This document shows positions 1,611 through 18,198 of a stretch of DNA of 22,701 bases, piece by piece. The translations under genes and the position numbers were made by a program. The notes beneath the pieces are model-generated. The model saw nothing but the letters and a program-made list of their open reading frames with translations. It did not search any database and was not told the origin of the DNA. Every line of letters begins with the position of its first letter. The stretch's first letter is position 1. Source of the stretch: a virus. The stretch covers positions 1-22,701 of the IMG/VR virus record IMGVR_UViG_3300032092_000280; one strand, 5' to 3'.

Positions 1611-4109
1611 ATGCCCGCTGTCTCTCAGAAGATCGACAACCTGATTGGGGGAGTCTCCCAGCAGCCTGACTCATTGAAGTTACCAGGCACACTCGTTACC
1701 TGCGACGACTACCTGCCAGATCCGTCCTTTGGTCTTGCCAAGAGACCAGGGGCCAAGCACATCTCTCTCCTGTCTGGTGCCCTGCCCGGTGCCTCCCGGT
1801 GGGGCCACATCGATCGTGACGATGAAGAGAAGTACCTGGTCCAGATTGGACGTTCAGGATCGGCCGCCATGGTCAAGGTATGGGATGCCCAGTCTGGAGA
1901 GGCCCAGACGGTTAACTCGATTGCCTCTGGAGCCGAATTCTACCTGACACACACCAACGACGACGACCTGGAACTGCTCACGGTCGGAGATTACAGTCTC
2001 ATCCTGAACAGGAAGGTCAAGGTCCGCCAGGGGTATGACTCCAGCCCCACTGACACTCCCTATGCGATCGTCAGTATCAATGCCATTGGATACAATAGCC
2101 GCTACGAGTTTACCCTCTTACCTTCGACTCTCTACACCTTCAACAGCTCAGCCACCACCACCGATCGCCTGAGTGTACGGGATGTCGCCGGAGGGTTGGC
2201 AGCCGTGATAAATGCGGGAGGTATCCTTACAGCCACGGTGGTTGGACCTTACCTGTATGTGCGCAGGAATGATGGAGGGCAATTCGATGCAATGACTTCT
2301 GGTGGGCAAGGAGGATTAGCCATTTCCATTGCCAAGGGTAAGGTATCAAGCCCAGCTGACCTTCCTAGGCAATTCATCAACAATGCCCGCATGCAGGTCC
2401 TCAGCAACGATGGATCAGATGGGGACGACTACTGGGTGACCTTCAAAACCGATAACGGAGCCACTTCAGGCGTCGGTGTATGGGAAGAGACGATCGGACC
2501 TGGAGTCATCAACGGATTCGACATTGACACCCTTCCCCATGCCCTCATCCGTGAGGCCAACGGCTCCTTCACCGTGCGCCGTTTGGGTCTTGCGGAGGCC
2601 CTGGCCACCTTGCCGAGCGTATCAACTACTGGGACCGTCATTACCGTCACTGTGCAGAGCTCCACCCGAGGGCGCTACATGGTCGGACAGACCTTTTATG
2701 TGAAGGGGGGCACCGGCAAGAATCTGCGGCTCCGGGTCATCACTGTGGATGCCTCTGGGAACATCCTGACCGTACAACCCTCCCGAGCAGGCCAGGGGTT
2801 TACGTTCTTAGACGTGGTAACCAATGAGTTCGGCGATACCTTCACCATCGCGGCTGTGGCTACAGCCACCACTGAGGTGGATCCATTTGCCAAACTCTAC
2901 TGGGTAGATCGGCAGTCCGGGGACATCGAATCCAACAGCTGGCCCAGCTTCAAAGATAATACCATCGACGGAATTTCATTCTTCAAGAACAGGCTGGTTC
3001 TTTCGAGCCAGGACAACATCATAACCAGCGTGGCTGGCGACTACTTCAACTTCTTCCGAACCACAGCTGCTACCGTCCTGGCATCTGATCCGATTGATAT
3101 TTCTGCAGGATCCACAAAGCCACTGAGATTCCGCCGTATGCTCCCATATCAGCAGGGCCTTCTCTGTTTCTCCGACAATGGACAATACAGCCTGGAAACC
3201 ACCACAGAGGCATTCAGTTCCACCACCGCTGAGCTGACCCAGGTAGGGTCCTACGATCTTCACGCCCAACTGGCTCCAGTCGACATTGGGCCAAGCATTG
3301 TCTTTGCCTCTCAGAGTGCCAGGTCTACATCAATCTTTGAAGCCAAGTTTACAGCCGAGGGCAATACACGTTCTTTGGTGTCTGAACTGACCAGGAGCAT
3401 CCCAGGGTATCTACCTCTTAGCATACAGGCCATGGCGTCCTCTACGTCAGCCGGATTGCTTGTTTTGAAAGGCGAGACTTCACCAACAGCCCTACCGCCC
3501 ACGCCCCCTCCCACGCCCACATCAGAAGTTGTATTTGGATTTAATTCGGCTCCTGTCGTAGGAACAAGCGAAGTCATAGTAAACGACGGACCTTATGTTC
3601 TGGGCTACCATTTTACTACGGAAGCTGCTCGGAAACTGACTCGCATAGGGATATACAAGCCAACACAGGCCGGCGTCAACCAGCCGACCACTATGGATCA
3701 TTCGGTTGGCATATGGGACTGGTCGAACACTTATGCCCCAAACTTCGGAGCACCTACGCTTATATGGCAGCAAGATTTTCCAATTTCAGGCACTTGTGTT
3801 GCAGGTGCTAACTCAACGGTGGCACCGTACTACTGCTGGTTTGACATCGCCAACGGCCCAGAGCTGGATCCAGACGTTGATTACGTTGTGGCCGCTACCT
3901 GGAACGAGCTTTCCCCGGTTGCAGTGCCACTTGGAACCGTGAACCTTATTATTCAAGATTTCAAATTAAACGAAACAGCAGCCACACAGCAAGGCGCCGT
4001 TCCGGGTATGCTTATTGACCTTGACAGCGAGTCGTACTATGCGCCAACTATAAATACGTCGCCTCAAAAAGGCTTCTTTACCGTCAACATGGAACTGTTG
4101 CGGCTGTGA
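1611..4109 (+). CDS. Tail tubular protein B, N-terminal part, fused to a DUF4082-like module
   Basis: This 832-residue protein is the nozzle component of the short tail. Seen: the start MPAVSQKIDNLIGGVSQQPD with CDDYLPDPSFGLAKRPG is the typical N-terminus of gp12-like proteins, and residues 1 to about 621 follow the family to the stretch ending GLLVLKG. Here the normal protein would continue with the LYCFKWYN block. Instead a Pro/Thr linker (about residues 622-638, PPTPPPTPTS) leads into a roughly 195-residue beta-rich module with YVLGYHFTTEA, RIGIY, HSVGIWDW and a closing DYVVAATW block, like DUF4082 domains. The frame ends in tandem stops TGA TAA (4107-4112). The missing C-terminal part of gp12 is encoded by the next gene in a different frame. 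The module uses more A/T-ending codons than its surroundings, which suggests transfer. ATG at 1611 has an AGGT just upstream. Confidence 0.9.
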   Translation: MPAVSQKIDNLIGGVSQQPDSLKLPGTLVTCDDYLPDPSFGLAKRPGAKHISLLSGALPGASRWGHIDRDDEEKYLVQIGRSGSAAMVKVWDAQSGEAQTVNSIASGAEFYLTHTNDDDLELLTVGDYSLILNRKVKVRQGYDSSPTDTPYAIVSINAIGYNSRYEFTLLPSTLYTFNSSATTTDRLSVRDVAGGLAAVINAGGILTATVVGPYLYVRRNDGGQFDAMTSGGQGGLAISIAKGKVSSPADLPRQFINNARMQVLSNDGSDGDDYWVTFKTDNGATSGVGVWEETIGPGVINGFDIDTLPHALIREANGSFTVRRLGLAEALATLPSVSTTGTVITVTVQSSTRGRYMVGQTFYVKGGTGKNLRLRVITVDASGNILTVQPSRAGQGFTFLDVVTNEFGDTFTIAAVATATTEVDPFAKLYWVDRQSGDIESNSWPSFKDNTIDGISFFKNRLVLSSQDNIITSVAGDYFNFFRTTAATVLASDPIDISAGSTKPLRFRRMLPYQQGLLCFSDNGQYSLETTTEAFSSTTAELTQVGSYDLHAQLAPVDIGPSIVFASQSARSTSIFEAKFTAEGNTRSLVSELTRSIPGYLPLSIQAMASSTSAGLLVLKGETSPTALPPTPPPTPTSEVVFGFNSAPVVGTSEVIVNDGPYVLGYHFTTEAARKLTRIGIYKPTQAGVNQPTTMDHSVGIWDWSNTYAPNFGAPTLIWQQDFPISGTCVAGANSTVAPYYCWFDIANGPELDPDVDYVVAATWNELSPVAVPLGTVNLIIQDFKLNETAATQQGAVPGMLIDLDSESYYAPTINTSPQKGFFTVNMELLRL
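3525..4106 (+). other. Inserted DUF4082-like beta-sandwich module within the nozzle gene
   Basis: This is the coding segment, after the Pro/Thr linker, that interrupts the tail tubular B gene. The order of blocks (FGFNSAPV, LGYHFTTEAARKLTRIGIY, SVGIWDW, PTLIWQQDF, YCWFDIANG, DYVVAATWNE) resembles DUF4082 domains, which carry a jelly-roll-like fold and occur in secreted carbohydrate-active proteins and phage fibres. Base and codon use are more A/T-rich than in the flanking nozzle sequence. A role in receptor or polysaccharide binding is inferred. The exact family assignment rests on pattern similarity only. Confidence 0.65.
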
Positions 4110-4155
4110 TAATCTCCCTTGCACTCGCGCAGCTTTTCCCAAATAGTCAGATGCC

Positions 4156-5016
4156 ATGAGCAACAACGGACAACTATACTGCTTCAAGTGGTATAACGCA
4201 TCAGAGGAGCGGGTACAGGCTGCCTGGTTCCGCTGGACGATGCCAGGCCAGATAGAGTACCACTTCTTTTCCTCTAATGTCCTGACCCTTGCGGTCCGAT
4301 CCGCAACAAGCCCTAATACCCTGATACTGGTCAGCCTCACCATCGACAACAACAATAACTCCAATGGGCCCCTGTTTTTCCAGGGAGACCAGGTGGATGT
4401 AAGGCTGGACCTCCACACATACAACCCAATGGTGGCCTACAATAGCACCAACAATACCACAGAAGTGGGCATCCCTGATCACCTGGCAGACTTCCAAAAT
4501 CAAACCTGGGAATGCGCCACCTTGGGGTCCGCAACCCCTGGGATCACCTTTACGGGCCCCTTGATCAATACCCCAGCAAACCCAGTCGGGAGACGTTGGC
4601 ACCTAAGGATCCCAGGGAACCTCAGCTCTAACCGGTTTGCCATTGGAGCGCGATACATCCCTGAGGCCACCCTGCCTGCCTTCTATGTAGCCGACAAAGA
4701 GGGCAGGAGGAGAGACACCCGCAACGTTCCCATCGTCCATCGGCTGACCCTATCCAGCTTCGACTCTGGACCCTACCAGGTAGAGGTCCGTAGTCTAGGG
4801 AGAAATCCATTCATCTCTACCCTGGAGCAGAAGGTGACCGGGGCCAATGTGCCCAATACCATCCCACTTGTCCGCAACCGAACCAATACTGTGCCAGTCA
4901 TGGCCAAGGGAGATGCCACCGAGATCAAGATCAAGGCCCCCTTCCTGTTCCCTGTGGCTGTGAACAGTGTATTGTGGGAGGGAACCTACGACACCTTTGG
5001 TCAGAAGCAAGTATGA
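4156..5016 (+). CDS. Tail tubular protein B, C-terminal part as a separate gene
   Basis: This 286-residue protein corresponds to the C-terminal third of gp12-like nozzle proteins. Seen: it opens MSNNGQLYCFKWYN, followed at once by EERVQAAWFRWTMPGQIEY. In intact gp12 homologues this block (tyrosine-rich strand, then QxxWxRW) directly follows the block that ends the previous gene's nozzle part. It closes with the NPFISTLEQKV and LWEGTYDTFGQKQV blocks expected at the end of gp12. It lies in frame 1 while the upstream part is in frame 3; a TAG at 4144-4146 stops any extension upstream, so ATG 4156 is the first usable start. No Shine-Dalgarno is visible. The two halves together (about 621 plus 286 residues) give a normal-size nozzle protein, so they probably assemble as a split protein. 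Confidence 0.85.
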   Translation: MSNNGQLYCFKWYNASEERVQAAWFRWTMPGQIEYHFFSSNVLTLAVRSATSPNTLILVSLTIDNNNNSNGPLFFQGDQVDVRLDLHTYNPMVAYNSTNNTTEVGIPDHLADFQNQTWECATLGSATPGITFTGPLINTPANPVGRRWHLRIPGNLSSNRFAIGARYIPEATLPAFYVADKEGRRRDTRNVPIVHRLTLSSFDSGPYQVEVRSLGRNPFISTLEQKVTGANVPNTIPLVRNRTNTVPVMAKGDATEIKIKAPFLFPVAVNSVLWEGTYDTFGQKQV

Positions 5017-6127: not shown

Positions 6128-9100
6128 ATGGCCATTGATTACAGTCCTCAAGGCCGTCGGGTATCCCTAGGCGGCACCACATCCCGTGGGTTCAACCCCG
6201 TTCAAGCTGTCGACAATTCCGATAGGGTACTCAGGCAGGGGCAGGACGCCCTTGCGAGCTTTGCCAAGGCCCAGGAGTACAATCTGGCCAACCCGGATAA
6301 GAGCCTGGAAGCCTTGGCTGGGCTGTCCAAGACGGTCACCGAGTTCATGGTCGAGCGTCAAAAAGGGGTAAATGAGAACGACCGCAAGCTCGGCATAGCT
6401 GACATCCTCAATGGGGACATTCAGCCTAAACCTGAGGCCCTACAGACCTATCGGGAAAATACCACCCAGCTTCGAGCTGCAGCTCTCGATGAGCAGAGTG
6501 CGCTCAATGATCTCGAGAATACTCGACCCGACGTGGCTGTAGAGATTCGAGCCAATGACCCCGTGGTAAGTGGATGGCGTCAGTATGGTCGGGCCCAGGG
6601 CACTGCCATGAAGGCTGCCGCCAGCGCCGAGATGCTCTTCGAGCAGGCGATGGAGTCCACCACCAAGAACATCCCGATCATCGCCGCTGATGGCAGCGTC
6701 CGGATGATCGCACCGTCCCAAGCAGAATCTATGGCAGAATTGAACGCCGTCTGGTCCGTGGTCCTTCAGGGGTTCATTGGAGCCAGCGGTCTCGATGGGA
6801 TCAATCCCCTCCTCTTGGCTGAGCACGTCACTCCCAAGATCATGGACATCAAGACCAGGGTCTTCTCTGCCGGTGCCAAGAAGATCGCCGCCGTTCAGAA
6901 GGATCGAGCTGTCAGCGAGGTCAACGCCAGGCTGGGAGGTGCGCTGGCCAACAGCCGCATGGATGATCCTAGAAACCTGGCCTCTATCTTCCAACTTGGT
7001 GGAGCCGAATGGGCCGCTGCCGAGGGAATCAGCCGCTCTGAAGCAGACAAGAAGGTCTTGGATCGGATGGTCACGGAGGCCGTCCTTCGACAGGATGCTG
7101 CTGCTGTCGCACGCCTCAAGAGGCTTCCCCGGGCGGAAGATGGGAGCATGTCACTAGGGACACTGGAGAACAGCTTCCCCGACGTGTTTGATAATGCTCT
7201 CACTCGCATCAAGGCACTGAACAAGCAAGAAGCCGATGAGCGAAAGGCGGCCCAACTCGCCACAGTCGAGAATGCGGTCCAAGCCTATGAGAAATCAATC
7301 ATCAATGCTACGCCTGATGAAGCTGAAAAAGCCTGGAAGATAACACAGCAAACACTGACTGAAATGTCAAGAATGGGACTTGCAGGCTCCGATGCTGCTC
7401 TCATCTTGCATAATCAGAAGCCGAAGCGACGTGCAGGCATCGCCTTCGAAGATAGCTTTGTCGAGCAGTTCAATCGGAACCCCGCTCGATGGAGCAAGGC
7501 CCAGGTGCAGAAGTCCATCGCTGATGGAGAGTTCAGTCCTGGCATCTTGAACCGCCTCTCGTTTCCTGAGGATCTGGCACCAGGTAGGAAAAAGGAGTTC
7601 ACCAAGATCACCCAGGATGCAGCCAAGGCAGCCATTGCTGCTCAGCTCAAAGGAAAGGGATTCACCACTACTGATCTCGAGGGAGCAGAAGTGGTCACTC
7701 GTTCTGCTCAGTTTGCTTTTGAGATGGAGACGGAGCTACTGAAACTTGCTGCTCAGAAGCCCGACTTCTCCACTGAGGACGCCAACGCCCATATTGAGAA
7801 GATGATCTCCCGGGTTCTCAATCCAAAGACCGGAGACCGTCGATTCATTGTAAGTCCAGTTCGGGCTAACACCCCTGGTCGCCCAGTGCAGTTCCTGGCC
7901 CCCCTGGTCAACAAAACCGCAGGGGTCAATTTCACCCAGACCGGAAAAACAGCGGACATTGATTACTCTCAGATCAAGCCTGCCGATCTGAGGGGAGTCA
8001 CCGTCAAGCCCAGAGATCGGGTTATGACAAACGATACCCTGCAAACCGGCGCGGAAATCTACAGAAAAACCGGCTCCTTTCCTGGAGAGCAAAAGGATGC
8101 CATCAGGCTCAGTGGGCTCACCCAGACCGAGTTCATCAGGACTCAAAATGGTGAACCCCGGAGCCTAGCTGATCTGGCCCAGGGCCTACAGCTGGCCATC
8201 AAGGACAATCCCCGCTCCACTCCGGTTGAGCTATTCAGGGCCGACTGGCAGATCGAGCGAAAAAGGCTGCTACTCCAGAACACACCGACGCTTTCAGGCG
8301 GTGTTGCTCCAGAAACAGCCGAGCTTTTGAGAGACCTTGGCAAAAAGGAAGGGGGAGCCATGGAGTATGAGGCTGCAAACAGCGGCACAGCCGACGACAT
8401 GCGCCAAGGCATCCCAGGCCTAACCAGCATGACCATCGATCAAATTCAAGGAACCAAGGCCCACCACGTTGGGAAGTATCAGCTTCAACTGGGCAAGGGT
8501 CGCACCCTGGATCTCCTCAAGCAGAGGATGGGTCTCACTGGCACTGAACCCTTCACCCCCGAGCTTCAGGACCGCATGGCCTCTGAGCTGATCTGGGGAG
8601 GCTGGAAGCGTCCAGCCCTCACAGCCTACCTCAAGGGTGGTGGCAACCTGGAGAAGGCGGTTGCGGACTTCAACGACGAATGGGAGGCCGGCAAGCTGAG
8701 CTTCGATGCTAGGCCCTACCTCAGAAGAATGCGGGCTGCCTACCAGGTCCGTGGTGGTAGTGCTGTTGGCCTGACCGGAAACTTCCGCAAGGAGAATGTC
8801 CCCGTAGTCAACTGGGAAACCAAGGGACGAGGTGATTCCTACCAGAAGGGTGGGGTTGACATCTACTTCAACGACAAGCAGTTCCCTGCCATTGCTCCAG
8901 GTAAGGTGGTCGACATCGGGCGCCAACCTGAGGGCAAAACCAGCTATGGAATCTATGTAGTTACCGAACACAAAGATCCCAAGACCGGTCAACTCTTTCA
9001 CCTCATCAACGCACACCTCGATGCGGTCCACGTCAATGTGGGCGACTCCATCCAGGTGGGCACCATCCTCGGACGGCAGGGTTCCACAGGCAGCACGTCT

Positions 9101-9217
9101 GCCGGCGGGATCGCCTCCATTGACCCTCTTGAGCCTGCCCCCCGTGGCTCTAAGCAGACCATCCCTTATCGGCGGCCTGAAGTCCTCAAGGAGCTTCTGC
9201 TGCCCCTTCTCCGGTGA
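6128..9217 (+). CDS. Large internal virion protein, gp15-like with lysozyme-like and M23-like domains
   Basis: This 1029-residue protein is an ejected core protein by position (after gp14-like, before gp16-like). Seen: a start MAIDYSPQGRRVSLGG, a long Ala/Glu/Lys-rich helical body (about 1-700), then a lysozyme-like region (about 730-870) with KKEGGAMEYEAANSG, VGKYQLQ (from Val781) and FTPELQDRMASELI followed by KRPALTAYL and VADFNDEW. The likely catalytic Glu is E741. The last part (about 890-1029) follows the M23 metallopeptidase plan: GGVDI with Asp911, APGKVVDIG, YGIYVVTEH, NAHLD with His963, VNVGDSIQVGTILGRQGSTG. The first zinc-ligand His is replaced by Lys907 and the HxH motif by an Ala/Gly/Ser stretch, so M23 activity is doubtful. 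In T7 the peptidoglycan-cutting domain is in gp16, not gp15. Role: local cell-wall digestion and channel formation during DNA entry. Confidence 0.85.
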   Translation: MAIDYSPQGRRVSLGGTTSRGFNPVQAVDNSDRVLRQGQDALASFAKAQEYNLANPDKSLEALAGLSKTVTEFMVERQKGVNENDRKLGIADILNGDIQPKPEALQTYRENTTQLRAAALDEQSALNDLENTRPDVAVEIRANDPVVSGWRQYGRAQGTAMKAAASAEMLFEQAMESTTKNIPIIAADGSVRMIAPSQAESMAELNAVWSVVLQGFIGASGLDGINPLLLAEHVTPKIMDIKTRVFSAGAKKIAAVQKDRAVSEVNARLGGALANSRMDDPRNLASIFQLGGAEWAAAEGISRSEADKKVLDRMVTEAVLRQDAAAVARLKRLPRAEDGSMSLGTLENSFPDVFDNALTRIKALNKQEADERKAAQLATVENAVQAYEKSIINATPDEAEKAWKITQQTLTEMSRMGLAGSDAALILHNQKPKRRAGIAFEDSFVEQFNRNPARWSKAQVQKSIADGEFSPGILNRLSFPEDLAPGRKKEFTKITQDAAKAAIAAQLKGKGFTTTDLEGAEVVTRSAQFAFEMETELLKLAAQKPDFSTEDANAHIEKMISRVLNPKTGDRRFIVSPVRANTPGRPVQFLAPLVNKTAGVNFTQTGKTADIDYSQIKPADLRGVTVKPRDRVMTNDTLQTGAEIYRKTGSFPGEQKDAIRLSGLTQTEFIRTQNGEPRSLADLAQGLQLAIKDNPRSTPVELFRADWQIERKRLLLQNTPTLSGGVAPETAELLRDLGKKEGGAMEYEAANSGTADDMRQGIPGLTSMTIDQIQGTKAHHVGKYQLQLGKGRTLDLLKQRMGLTGTEPFTPELQDRMASELIWGGWKRPALTAYLKGGGNLEKAVADFNDEWEAGKLSFDARPYLRRMRAAYQVRGGSAVGLTGNFRKENVPVVNWETKGRGDSYQKGGVDIYFNDKQFPAIAPGKVVDIGRQPEGKTSYGIYVVTEHKDPKTGQLFHLINAHLDAVHVNVGDSIQVGTILGRQGSTGSTSAGGIASIDPLEPAPRGSKQTIPYRRPEVLKELLLPLLR

Positions 9218-13659: not shown

Positions 13660-13893
13660 ATGTTCACCTCTATTCTCGTCCTCAAAATTGCTGGTCTGGT
13701 TATTTCCACTGAGCAGCTCTTTTCTGCTGCTTGGTTTTCTTTCTTCATTACCTCAGAGTACCTAGCTAATAATCCAAAAATCAAAGCCAACTCTATTTTC
13801 CAACTCATCACTGGTTACCTCAGGTCGGTCCGGCATGAGGACGATCAGATCAACGCGATCAAACAGATTCTCAGAGGCAAAGGCCGCCGATGA
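13660..13893 (+). CDS. Small hydrophobic protein upstream of the lysin, possible holin
   Basis: This 77-residue protein has a hydrophobic N-terminal half (about residues 3-36, with LVLKIAGLVI and SAAWFSFFIT) interrupted by one Lys and one Glu. An NSIFQLITGYLRS amphipathic segment follows, and the tail is strongly basic (GKGRR). It overlaps the lysin gene by four bases (ATGA). Position next to a putative lysin, small size and hydrophobicity fit a class II-like holin or another membrane-active lysis protein, but the charges within the hydrophobic part make a transmembrane assignment uncertain. I do not recognise a named family. The coding sequence is more A/T-rich than its neighbours. A weak GAG lies upstream of the ATG. 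Confidence 0.6.
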   Translation: MFTSILVLKIAGLVISTEQLFSAAWFSFFITSEYLANNPKIKANSIFQLITGYLRSVRHEDDQINAIKQILRGKGRR

Positions 13894-14438
13894 CGAACAT
13901 CCTCTGGAAGGTTCCTCAATACTACAGCCAGGTTGATTCAACCACAAGCCATGGCCAGCGAATGTGTCGCTCCAGTACCAACGCCATGGCCATCAAGTTC
14001 TTCAGGCCTGATGCACTCAAAGGCTCTAATGCCGACGACACTTATCTCAAGTCGGTGTTGAAGTACGGTGACACCACCGAACCGATGCCTCACGAGAAAG
14101 CCGCCCTGGAGTACGGGGTCAGACTCCGCAGCTTCACCAACGGCACCTTCAAAGACCTCCTAGAAGCCCTGAAACTGGGTCCGGTAGGTGTAGGCTTCCT
14201 GCACCACGGGCCCGTCTCAGCCCCCCGTGGAGGGGGCCACTGGGTCCTTCTGATCGGGGCCACCGCAACCCATGGCATCTTCAACGATCCCTTCGGAGAG
14301 CTGGATGTCGTGAATGGGGGCTACATCAGAATTGGCTCAGGAGGCAAGGAAGTCAGGTACAGCTGGAAGAACTTCCTCCCCAGGTGGGCCAGTGCGTCCA
14401 TTGGTCCTGGTTTCTACACCACATACGAACGTAGTTGA
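13890..14438 (+). CDS. C39-like cysteine peptidase, putative endolysin
   Basis: This 182-residue protein shows the plan of the peptidase C39-like (C39_2) papain-fold family. Seen: VPQYYSQVD with the oxyanion Gln14, then MCRSSTNAMAI with the nucleophile Cys26, GGGHWVLLIGA with His117, and FNDPFGE with Asn132/Asp133. All expected catalytic positions are present in the right order and spacing. There is no signal peptide. It follows a small hydrophobic gene with coupled translation and lies just before the small terminase, where lysis genes are expected in T7-like phages, so a peptidoglycan cross-bridge or stem-peptide hydrolase is the best guess. T7 itself uses an amidase (gp3.5) in the early region; this would be a replacement. 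Alternative: a virion-associated protease. Confidence 0.75.
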   Translation: MTNILWKVPQYYSQVDSTTSHGQRMCRSSTNAMAIKFFRPDALKGSNADDTYLKSVLKYGDTTEPMPHEKAALEYGVRLRSFTNGTFKDLLEALKLGPVGVGFLHHGPVSAPRGGGHWVLLIGATATHGIFNDPFGELDVVNGGYIRIGSGGKEVRYSWKNFLPRWASASIGPGFYTTYERS

Positions 14439-14906: not shown

Positions 14907-15171
14907 GTCTGCCAAGTATTACGCCCAAAATCCCAAGGCCGCTGCTAAGAAAGCAGCCTACCAACGCAAGCTCAATAAGAAGCCAGCCGTAAAGGCAGCC
15001 TCAGAGGAGCGATGGGCAGAGCGCAAGCGGCGTGGGATTGCTGGGAAGGGAGGCAAGGACCTCTCACACACGACCGACGGCCGGATGGTCCTCGAGTCCC
15101 CAGCCAAGAACCGAGCTCGCAATGGGGCTGGCAACAACGGCATTCGGAAACCAGTCAAGAGGAAACGCTGA
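14893..15171 (+). CDS. Small basic phage protein of unknown function
   Basis: This 92-residue protein is extremely basic, with Lys and Arg clusters in the first 50 residues (AKKAAYQRKLNKK, RWAERKRR) and at the C-terminus (KPVKRKR). The middle reads KDLSHTTDGRMVLESPAKNRARNG. The pattern D-L-S-H-T-x-D-G-x-M-V-L-E followed by K-N-R-A-R-N-G is one I associate with small conserved proteins of many marine and freshwater phages, without a known function. Nucleic-acid binding is inferred from charge. It overlaps the upstream gene by 14 bases in another frame and has no hydrophobic segment, so it is not a spanin partner. It is followed by the HNH gene. Confidence 0.7.
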   Translation: MAESKSAKYYAQNPKAAAKKAAYQRKLNKKPAVKAASEERWAERKRRGIAGKGGKDLSHTTDGRMVLESPAKNRARNGAGNNGIRKPVKRKR

Positions 15172-15178
15172 ACTTCTC

Positions 15179-15484
15179 ATGCCAAGTTTGACTCCGGATC
15201 ACCTTCTCCAGAGCCTCCAAGCCATGACCAGCTCCGAAGCAAAACGCATGTGGCGTGAGTCTATCAAGGCTCACTACAACCACCGCTGCGTCTATTGTGG
15301 TTCCGATTCCAATCTTACCCTTGATCATGTCAAGCCACGATGCCGTGGGGGCCGCAGCGAGGCCTCCAACCTCGTGGCTGCTTGTCAAGATTGCAACCAA
15401 AGCAAGGGTTCCAGCGACGTTCTTGATTGGTTCTTGAGCCAGCCCTTCTTCAATTCTTCCATCCTTCAGAGTCTTCCATTATGA
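15179..15484 (+). CDS. HNH endonuclease
   Basis: This 101-residue protein is a compact HNH nuclease. Seen: a zinc knuckle C37-V-Y-C40, the catalytic block LTLDHVKPRCRGG with Asp49/His50, NLVAAC with Asn64, and C69-Q-D-C72-N-Q-S-K-G. All ligands and the general base are intact. The HNH core occupies residues 33-78, with a short Trp-containing helix before it and a hydrophobic tail after it. Such single-domain nucleases occur beside phage packaging genes, where some are needed for terminase cleavage, and also as free-standing homing nucleases. The start ATG at 15179 is chosen because the longer open frame (from 15032) lies inside the preceding basic gene. Its stop overlaps the next start (ATGA). 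Confidence 0.88.
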   Translation: MPSLTPDHLLQSLQAMTSSEAKRMWRESIKAHYNHRCVYCGSDSNLTLDHVKPRCRGGRSEASNLVAACQDCNQSKGSSDVLDWFLSQPFFNSSILQSLPL

Positions 15485-16634: not shown

Positions 16635-17707
16635 TGCCTTACACATTTAATCCCCTTTCGGGCAATTTCGATTTTTTCGAATCAAGCAATGGTGGTGGTG
16701 GTTTTACTATCAACGCATCTGGTCTGCTAAGCGGTAGATCCGCCTACGATTCTGAGCCTGCAGGCTTTGTCTATCTAGCTACAGATAATGGAAACCTCTA
16801 CATTAAACAAACCGGACTAGGAGTCTGGAGTGCAGGGGTGCCTTACGTTGGTCCACCAGGGCCACCAGGACCAGCAGGGCCAGCAGGAGCCAACGGAACC
16901 AACGGAACCAACGGAACCAACGGAACTGACGGTATTGATGGAACTGACGGTATTGATGGAACTGACGGTATTGATGGAGCTGACGGAACCAATGGCACCA
17001 ACGGCACATCCGCAACAGTTACGGTCGGAAGCACTACAACTGGAGCCGCTGGAACCTCTGCCAGCGTCACCAACGTTGGCACCAGCAGCGCAGCCATCCT
17101 CAACTTCACGATCCCGAGGGGTGATCCCGGAGTCGGGGGAGCATCCAATGAATTGTACGCACTAAACAAATCGTTCTGCCCTTTCCAGAGCGCGGTTGCA
17201 GCCGGAGCCGCAAACCCTGCCAATACGCTAGCAATCATTCCGTTCAAAGTTGAGCGTTCTGGGCGTGTTGATGCGCTGCAGTTGAGGGTTATCACGTCTG
17301 TTGCTTCATCGTTGTTTCAAATCGCCTTTTATGCTTCATTGAACGGCGTACCTATTGGCACGCCTATAGGCGTAACGCCTTCAATGAGTGGCGCGGCGGG
17401 GGCAAACCTAAGCGAAACATTTGGGACACCGTTTAACCTAATTGCGGGTCGTACGTATTTTCTAGCCGTAAACGTCAGCACCGGCACCACTCTGACATTC
17501 CTGGCGCTACCAGCAGGAAGCTTGCATTCCTGGAACCTGTGTGGACCTGCGTCTATTACTGGCGTGAATAACACTAATGCAATGTTCAATTACACCATAT
17601 CTCAACCGTTCGGCACCTGGCCCGACTTGACCGGGGCAACACTGGGAACAGTTTTTGGACTAAGCCGAGCACCAATTGCGTGGCTGCAATACGGGGCGTT
17701 TGTGTAA
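16634..17707 (+). CDS. Collagen-like fibre protein 2 with C-terminal jelly-roll-like domain
   Basis: This 357-residue protein has an N-terminal globular part (about 1-72, with MPYTFNPLSGNFDF and FVYLATDNGNLYIKQ). A collagen-like stem follows (about 76-124: GPPGPPGPAGPAG, then GTN and GTDGID triplets). Next is a Thr/Ser/Ala-rich neck (about 125-170) and a C-terminal beta-rich domain (about 180-357). The C-terminal domain has the order NTLAIIPFKVERSGRVDALQ, FQIAFYASLNGVP, AGRTYFLAVNVS, as in jelly-roll tips of phage fibres. It probably forms a trimer with a receptor-binding tip. GAAGG seven bases upstream supports ATG 16634 over the TTG at 16631. The tip-coding DNA is more A/T-rich than the late genes before it, consistent with horizontal exchange of tips. 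Its stop overlaps the next start by one base. Confidence 0.8.
   Translation: MPYTFNPLSGNFDFFESSNGGGGFTINASGLLSGRSAYDSEPAGFVYLATDNGNLYIKQTGLGVWSAGVPYVGPPGPPGPAGPAGANGTNGTNGTNGTDGIDGTDGIDGTDGIDGADGTNGTNGTSATVTVGSTTTGAAGTSASVTNVGTSSAAILNFTIPRGDPGVGGASNELYALNKSFCPFQSAVAAGAANPANTLAIIPFKVERSGRVDALQLRVITSVASSLFQIAFYASLNGVPIGTPIGVTPSMSGAAGANLSETFGTPFNLIAGRTYFLAVNVSTGTTLTFLALPAGSLHSWNLCGPASITGVNNTNAMFNYTISQPFGTWPDLTGATLGTVFGLSRAPIAWLQYGAFV
16892..16981 (+). repeat. Nested 9-base and 18-base tandem repeats in the collagen stem
   Basis: Four 9-base units (AACGGAACC type, 16892-16927) encode NGT triplets. Three 18-base units (GACGGTATTGATGGAACT type, 16928-16945, 16946-16963, 16964-16981) encode DGIDGT/A. 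Near-identity of the copies suggests recent expansion by slippage or recombination, always in frame. Confidence 0.93.
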
Positions 17708-18198
17708 TGGCCATAAGCTATGATGCCAATACTGTAACAATCACCGACCCGTTCGGCAACCGTTCGCCCGTCGTTTTGTCGCGCAGTCTGCCGCCTGAGG
17801 AGATTGAGGAGGCGATAGTCCTCTACCACCCTCCCACAGACCCAGAGCCCGACTGGGGCGGCTTTCTTCAGCAGTTGCTGCAATCACCCATGTTGGGTGC
17901 CGCGCAGTTGGGTGCCGAGGCGATCATTGGTGCGGAGCTGCCGACAGCCAACGCCGAGCGAGCGGACCAGCTGCTCAGGGCGGTAAATGCCTTGACCAGC
18001 CTCACAAGCGGGCTCGCGGTTGCCTCGTTGCCATTCGGCGATTCCGGCTTGTTTGTGGGTGCCTGGCTGCTGCTGCGCGAGGCGAGTCTCGTCGCGCCTG
18101 AAATCGCTGCGGCTATGACGCAGCTTGCCGTGAGCTACCACATACCCCAGAACCTGATCGATTCGCTCGGGGCCCCTGTTGAGCCTCCTCAGTCATGA
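17707..18198 (+). CDS. Unrecognised protein in the fibre cluster
   Basis: This 163-residue protein was not recognised. Seen: a short beta-like N-terminus (MAISYDANTVTITDPFGN), a Pro/acidic stretch (about 28-50, LPPEEIEEAIVLYHPPTDPEP), and then an Ala/Leu-rich mainly helical part (about 52-152) with moderately hydrophobic stretches GLAVASLPFGDSGLFVGAWL and APEIAAAMTQLAV. No clear transmembrane helix or signal peptide is visible. The one-base overlap (TAATG) with the fibre gene suggests it acts with that fibre, for example as an assembly chaperone or capping protein. This is inferred from position alone. A holin-like role cannot be excluded given the semi-hydrophobic helices. Confidence 0.6.
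   Translation: MAISYDANTVTITDPFGNRSPVVLSRSLPPEEIEEAIVLYHPPTDPEPDWGGFLQQLLQSPMLGAAQLGAEAIIGAELPTANAERADQLLRAVNALTSLTSGLAVASLPFGDSGLFVGAWLLLREASLVAPEIAAAMTQLAVSYHIPQNLIDSLGAPVEPPQS

Follow-up and report, generated by a model that had tools for sequence, protein, structure and literature searches.

Can a core protein of a phage tail be encoded in two pieces, and what might the domain that separates them be doing there? The question is raised by the stretch of DNA analysed here (the window), an IMG/VR record of 22,701 bases with T7-like genes in the order capsid-like gene, tail tube A, nozzle, internal proteins, tail genes and large terminase, the adaptor or tail tube A gene (PF17212) lying upstream of the nozzle. 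The terminase is nearest to those of Synechococcus T7-like phages (~52% identity to S-CBP42), and the hosts of the window phage, like those of the other phages described below, are probably of the Synechococcus type, as assigned through relatedness. Elsewhere in the window, the internal virion protein (6128–9217) ends in an M23 peptidase domain (PF01551, 1.7e-8), and a C39-like peptidase was recorded at 13890–14438 (PF13529, E 0.0019, under the curated cut-off).

A nozzle gene in two open reading frames

The ORF at 1611–4109 encodes 832 aa and closes with the tandem stops TGA TAA at 4107–4112, whereas the ORF at 4156–5016 (286 aa) starts with ATG in a different frame and contains no internal stop; both lie on the plus strand. 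Profile searches matched PF25675 (Phage_nozzle) to the two at 5.4e-122 and 5.5e-27, respectively, and phrog_457 continued from one to the other, its positions 1–524 corresponding to residues 1–623 of the first ORF and positions 526–787 to the second (1.7e-35). A full-length match to the nozzle profile is thus obtained only from both ORFs combined. The initial annotation, made from the sequence alone, had placed the end of gp12 conservation at about residue 621 and its resumption in the next gene, and had proposed that two polypeptides make up the nozzle, a new domain hanging from the new C-terminus; the analysis supports this two-polypeptide coding, the restart and a terminal domain that is rich in beta structure. 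As two ORFs in different frames, parted by tandem stops, take the place of the single polypeptide expected of the family, we filed them as a split nozzle rather than a standard one.

The N-terminal part (residues 1–621; 1611–3473), delimited by PF25675, phrog_457 and alignment to T7 gp12 (PMC6702177), comprises the propeller as far as its closing blades and the N-terminal platform strands. It is followed by a Pro/Thr-rich linker, ETSPTALPPTPPPTPT (3474–3521), which is missing from intact homologues, and by a mobile module of 195 aa (3522–4106), modelled as a beta-sandwich and outside known families, after which the tandem stops end chain 1. Another 43 nt (4113–4155) precede the restart, with no clear Shine–Dalgarno sequence before the ATG; few genes of the window have one. 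The C-terminal part (4156–5016) supplies the end of the propeller, the fibre dock and the platform. This succession of linker, module of ~195 residues, tandem stops and restart in another frame is as originally described, the beta-sandwich now being backed by a model. GC3 of the module (0.49) is unlike that of both nozzle halves (0.63 and 0.68), matching the expectation for a foreign piece.

When aligned to solved nozzles, the junction falls at about residues 518–524 of T7 gp12 and 519–523 of P-SCSP1u gp23. In T7 gp12, C504 belongs to blade 7 and C554 to blade 1, at the closure of a seven-bladed propeller, and 45 N-terminal residues supply three strands of the platform barrel (PMC6702177). Since the junction lies between the equivalents of these two cysteines, the break occurs in the closing-blade region, in a loop probably flanked by two beta-strands. 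The two halves of the window nozzle jointly span the whole fold, as do T7 gp12 and P-SCSP1u gp23, although each of these is one chain and the window nozzle has a break in its closing blades and an added domain. Chains tied to each other at the closing blades and at the platform would make a two-chain nozzle plausible.

The break is a gain of 682 nt

Comparison with intact relatives upheld the view of an interrupted gene: all 74 fetched viral-contig homologues with both nozzle parts read through the junction in one frame and free of stops, with no residue extra or missing in 73 of them and three missing in the other. The closest relatives over the N-terminal part (L111–L113, 77–81% identical) likewise have an intact gene. 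Given the unbroken gene in the 74 homologues, the insert of 682 nt (3474–4155), a multiple of three plus one base, is a clean gain in the window, and conservation of the module as a protein domain elsewhere excludes a chance reading frame. Judged from the sequence, the nozzle split is real, and it is known from one metagenomic contig. The contig of one relative (L002, 4519 bp) stops at nozzle residue 620, exactly at the insertion point, either by chance or because assembly broke off at a site that varies in the population.

An unclassified domain family

The module was found in 13 other viral (IMG/VR) contigs at 58–76% identity, three sets of peptide patterns returning the same 13. Comparison with Pfam, PHROG, NCBIfam, PADLOC and PDB sequences gave chance-level matches only, and there was no match in 50,697 named phage records. 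The label 'DUF4082-like', given in the initial annotation, had to be dropped: at E ≤ 1, PF13313 matched nothing in seven carrier records, nor did it appear in an hmmscan of 10 module members. Membership in the Ig-like, Big or FN3 families was rejected as well, the only hit, of a single member against an Ig-like model, having an E-value of 0.2, which is chance level. A cellular origin was also considered and set aside, two scans of GTDB genomes, which depend on short exact peptides, having returned no relative.

Two AlphaFold models of the module (pLDDT 59.5 and 66.5; pTM 0.62 and 0.73) both show a beta-sandwich. Foldseek searches with these models returned nothing at E ≤ 0.001; weak matches were to the phi812 baseplate, TNF-like jelly rolls, CBM35 and mycobacteriophage tail proteins, and no confident fold or ligand match pointed to a binding partner. 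For this reason, our claim on the fold stops at the beta-sandwich, and we regard the module as a family of its own with a predicted beta-sandwich structure of modest confidence.

Carriers of the module and a second split gene

In every carrier the module is C-terminal, and the carrier records searched have a single copy apiece. At least four types of carrier protein were distinguished, besides a free ORF: the nozzle of the T7-like window phage; the baseplate wedge initiator gp7 of a T4-like phage (L106 and L093, which are one contig); a small protein encoded close to a J-like tail protein (phrog_27845; L096, L105 and L094); a minor tail protein (phrog_15525; L097); and, in L099–L104, the module as its own ORF directly before a tail-fibre gene. 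Wherever a carrier protein could be named, it is a tail protein. Among named phages, the carriers of the third and fourth types are akin to S-LBS1, S-CBS1 and S-CBS3, L099–L104 to S-CBWM1 (terminase 53.5%), and L106 to Synechococcus and Prochlorococcus T4-like phages; by sequence kinship, the carriers are thus relatives of T7-like, T4-like, S-CBWM1-like and siphoviral Synechococcus phages. The minor tail protein of the L097 type also occurs in S-LBS1, without the module, and L199–L201 encode the small protein of the L096/L105/L094 type with a different C-terminus. A partial homologue of the C39-like peptidase of the window is present in the S-CBWM1-like carrier L102 (53% over 75 aa).

The T4-like carrier repeats the layout of the window in another core gene. 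In L106, the N-terminal part of gp7 runs to ...VTIDGVID; after it come a Pro-rich linker, the module and a stop and, 50 nt further on, an ATG that opens the remaining gp7. Both parts match, in order, one intact annotated gp7 gene in S-SM2, SynMITS9220M01 and others. At 77 other loci the gp7 junction was visible, and 75 of these have a short in-frame stretch there, typically of ~11 residues (e.g. GVSTLSGQDFN). L135 and L136 are the exceptions, with ~235 in-frame residues made up of three repeats of a unit unrelated to the module, and this insertion at the split site of L106 indicates that the gp7 loop tolerates additions. The repeat unit reads TATxGQTxFxF..LLDVFxNGVRLxxxDY (L135, 4290–5000; L136, 4299–5000). 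By these gene layouts, the module has entered a core gene twice, in nozzle and gp7, with stop and restart both times and with one contig for each case. Both the gp7 split and the mobile family on unrelated tail proteins had been overlooked in the initial annotation, and we judge them to be more important than what it described.

Exchange between phages

The module tree is at odds with the carrier proteins. In it, the window clusters with the siphoviral carriers L096 and L097 (99/96), and the J-like proteins of L096 and L105 are 90% identical while their modules come from different clades. Within the module, a run of 48 nt is identical between the window and L096. DNA similarity among carriers is essentially limited to linker and domain, which gives no indication of a transposable element, and one with conserved DNA ends was rejected on this ground. 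A CTTG-type motif after the stop, spotted by eye, was inconsistent and was also discarded. Transfer of the module likely occurred by illegitimate or short-homology recombination.

A second traded tail cassette was noticed at 17135–18176, covering the C-terminal end of a collagen-like tail gene and the next gene; it is 86.6% identical in DNA to positions 15–1059 of the siphoviral carrier L097 over 1,046 bp, indicating that these phages trade tail parts. The window also encodes a free-standing HNH endonuclease (15032–15484; PF01844, 7e-12), near tail genes and outside the nozzle insert, which might promote recombination locally.

Weighing the explanations

Our preferred reading, to which we assign a probability of about two in three, is that a promiscuous surface domain was gained in the middle of the nozzle, with a stop and a restart, that the two resulting chains form one subunit, and that the domain probably contacts the host. 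Such a domain, traded among otherwise unrelated Synechococcus-type phages, would have landed in a loop of a T7-like nozzle gene and brought its own stop, the remaining gene being translated from the new ATG as chain 2; a C-terminal domain with its own stop can stay in mid-gene only if the remainder restarts. The two chains would reassemble as one nozzle subunit joined at the closing blades and at the platform barrel, which also requires the N-terminal strands of chain 1, and the gp7 halves, like those of the nozzle, presumably still find each other. Six copies of the module would then hang off the tail by the flexible Pro/Thr linker, and their display would probably add a contact with the host surface.

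Several other accounts of the same layout were weighed. An assembly chimera, in which the module of a foreign phage was misjoined into the nozzle gene, might be suspected from the single contig and from the 48-mer in common with L096, but it requires two false joins 682 nt apart; past the 48-mer, the window runs on to its own stop and the C-terminal part of the nozzle rather than to the flank of L096, the junctions have no other long exact match, and L106 repeats the stop-and-restart layout in gp7. We consider such an artefact very improbable. Little more credence is due to the idea of a defective phage, or of one relying on a different nozzle, in which the C-terminal part is a decaying remnant, even though the interruption of the core gene is out of frame and the phage was not isolated. 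Against decay, the C-terminal part is free of stops and frameshifts, its ATG coincides with the junction, and its dN/dS relative to L023 is 0.136, a value that spans time before the split too and is therefore supporting evidence only; full-length halves are, moreover, kept in two independent cases, nozzle and gp7. The N-terminal part has a dN/dS of 0.094 against the same relative, and module members have values of ~0.07–0.21 where dS is unsaturated, all of which points to purifying selection on the module and on both nozzle halves. Removal of the insert by splicing, which would restore a whole nozzle, is hardly credible. The flanks of the module measure only 48 and 49 nt, which is too short for a group I or II intron core, and an intein is excluded by the stops and the frame change within the insert. 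Clean insertions in conserved genes are nonetheless typical of both kinds of element, and phage genes split by introns and inteins are known (PMC3322345, PMC5618024). No Rfam intron was found at E ≤ 1, nor any other RNA element, and there was no Pfam match within the insert, nearly all of which is a conserved domain that elsewhere forms the ordinary C-terminal domain of unspliced genes.

The architecture may also be accepted and the role of the module disputed: it could stabilise the tail or be a neutral decoration, an option that we rate as unlikely, if worth keeping in mind. It would fit the absence of a confident Foldseek fold or ligand match, and certain phage Ig-like domains are dispensable for infection (PMC9022992). 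Yet the carriers are structurally unrelated while their probable hosts are related, the carrier proteins that can be named belong to tails, and the second tail cassette of the window recurs, 86.6% identical in DNA, in a siphoviral carrier. We therefore favour the surface-contact reading, in which the module is probably a tail-tip domain and host-surface adhesin, as its position, mobility and shared host type suggest; exposure on the tail and binding to a receptor or glycan, both proposed at the outset, seem likely.

Relation to known systems

Phage Ig-like domains are often C-terminal on unrelated structural proteins, are acquired through non-homologous recombination, whether in frame or out of frame, and have a proposed role in adsorption (Fraser et al. 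2006, via PMC9022992 and PMC5009743). The module behaves in the same promiscuous way, being a C-terminal beta-sandwich on unrelated structural proteins of unrelated phages, but it differs in having no sequence match to any Ig-like family. Out-of-frame Ig-like domains follow a complete gene and are reached by a frameshift at its end, whereas the module sits inside a core gene whose remainder restarts as a second ORF. We accordingly liken it to Ig-like domains in behaviour without filing it as one, the splitting of core genes being what it adds to that precedent.

A genes-in-pieces ribonucleotide reductase offers another parallel, an insertion in an essential phage gene having left two cooperating chains (Friedrich et al. 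2007, as cited in PMC3322345). The insertion in the nozzle gene also leaves two chains, which here would work together; as that citing source presents it, however, the reductase insert is a homing endonuclease and the product an enzyme, whereas the nozzle insert encodes a structural domain that extends the first half of the protein, itself part of the virion structure. Mosaicism of receptor-binding and tail proteins, with fragments common to unrelated tail proteins across taxonomic boundaries, is described in PMC10684548, and the presence of the module on otherwise unrelated tail proteins resembles it; the section consulted gives no case in which a core conduit or baseplate protein is split. 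A search of the open literature returned neither a split nozzle nor a split gp7, in keeping with the initial statement that no described split nozzle of this kind was known.

Implications for core tail proteins and host recognition

Within their respective phage groups, the nozzle, through which DNA is ejected, and gp7 rank with the most conserved parts of the machinery. That the same traded domain cuts both suggests that two-chain core tail proteins are possible, and the split sites mark loops that tolerate additions. Stop-and-restart splitting could be a repeatable route by which a C-terminal-only adhesin is mounted inside essential tail proteins, with nozzle and gp7 loops as landing sites for a domain traded among podo-, myo- and siphoviruses of one host group; we regard this generalisation as evenly balanced between right and wrong. 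The module points to a domain jumping between phage morphotypes with a common host group, and, if it binds the host surface, cyanophage host recognition would become testable with one small soluble domain.
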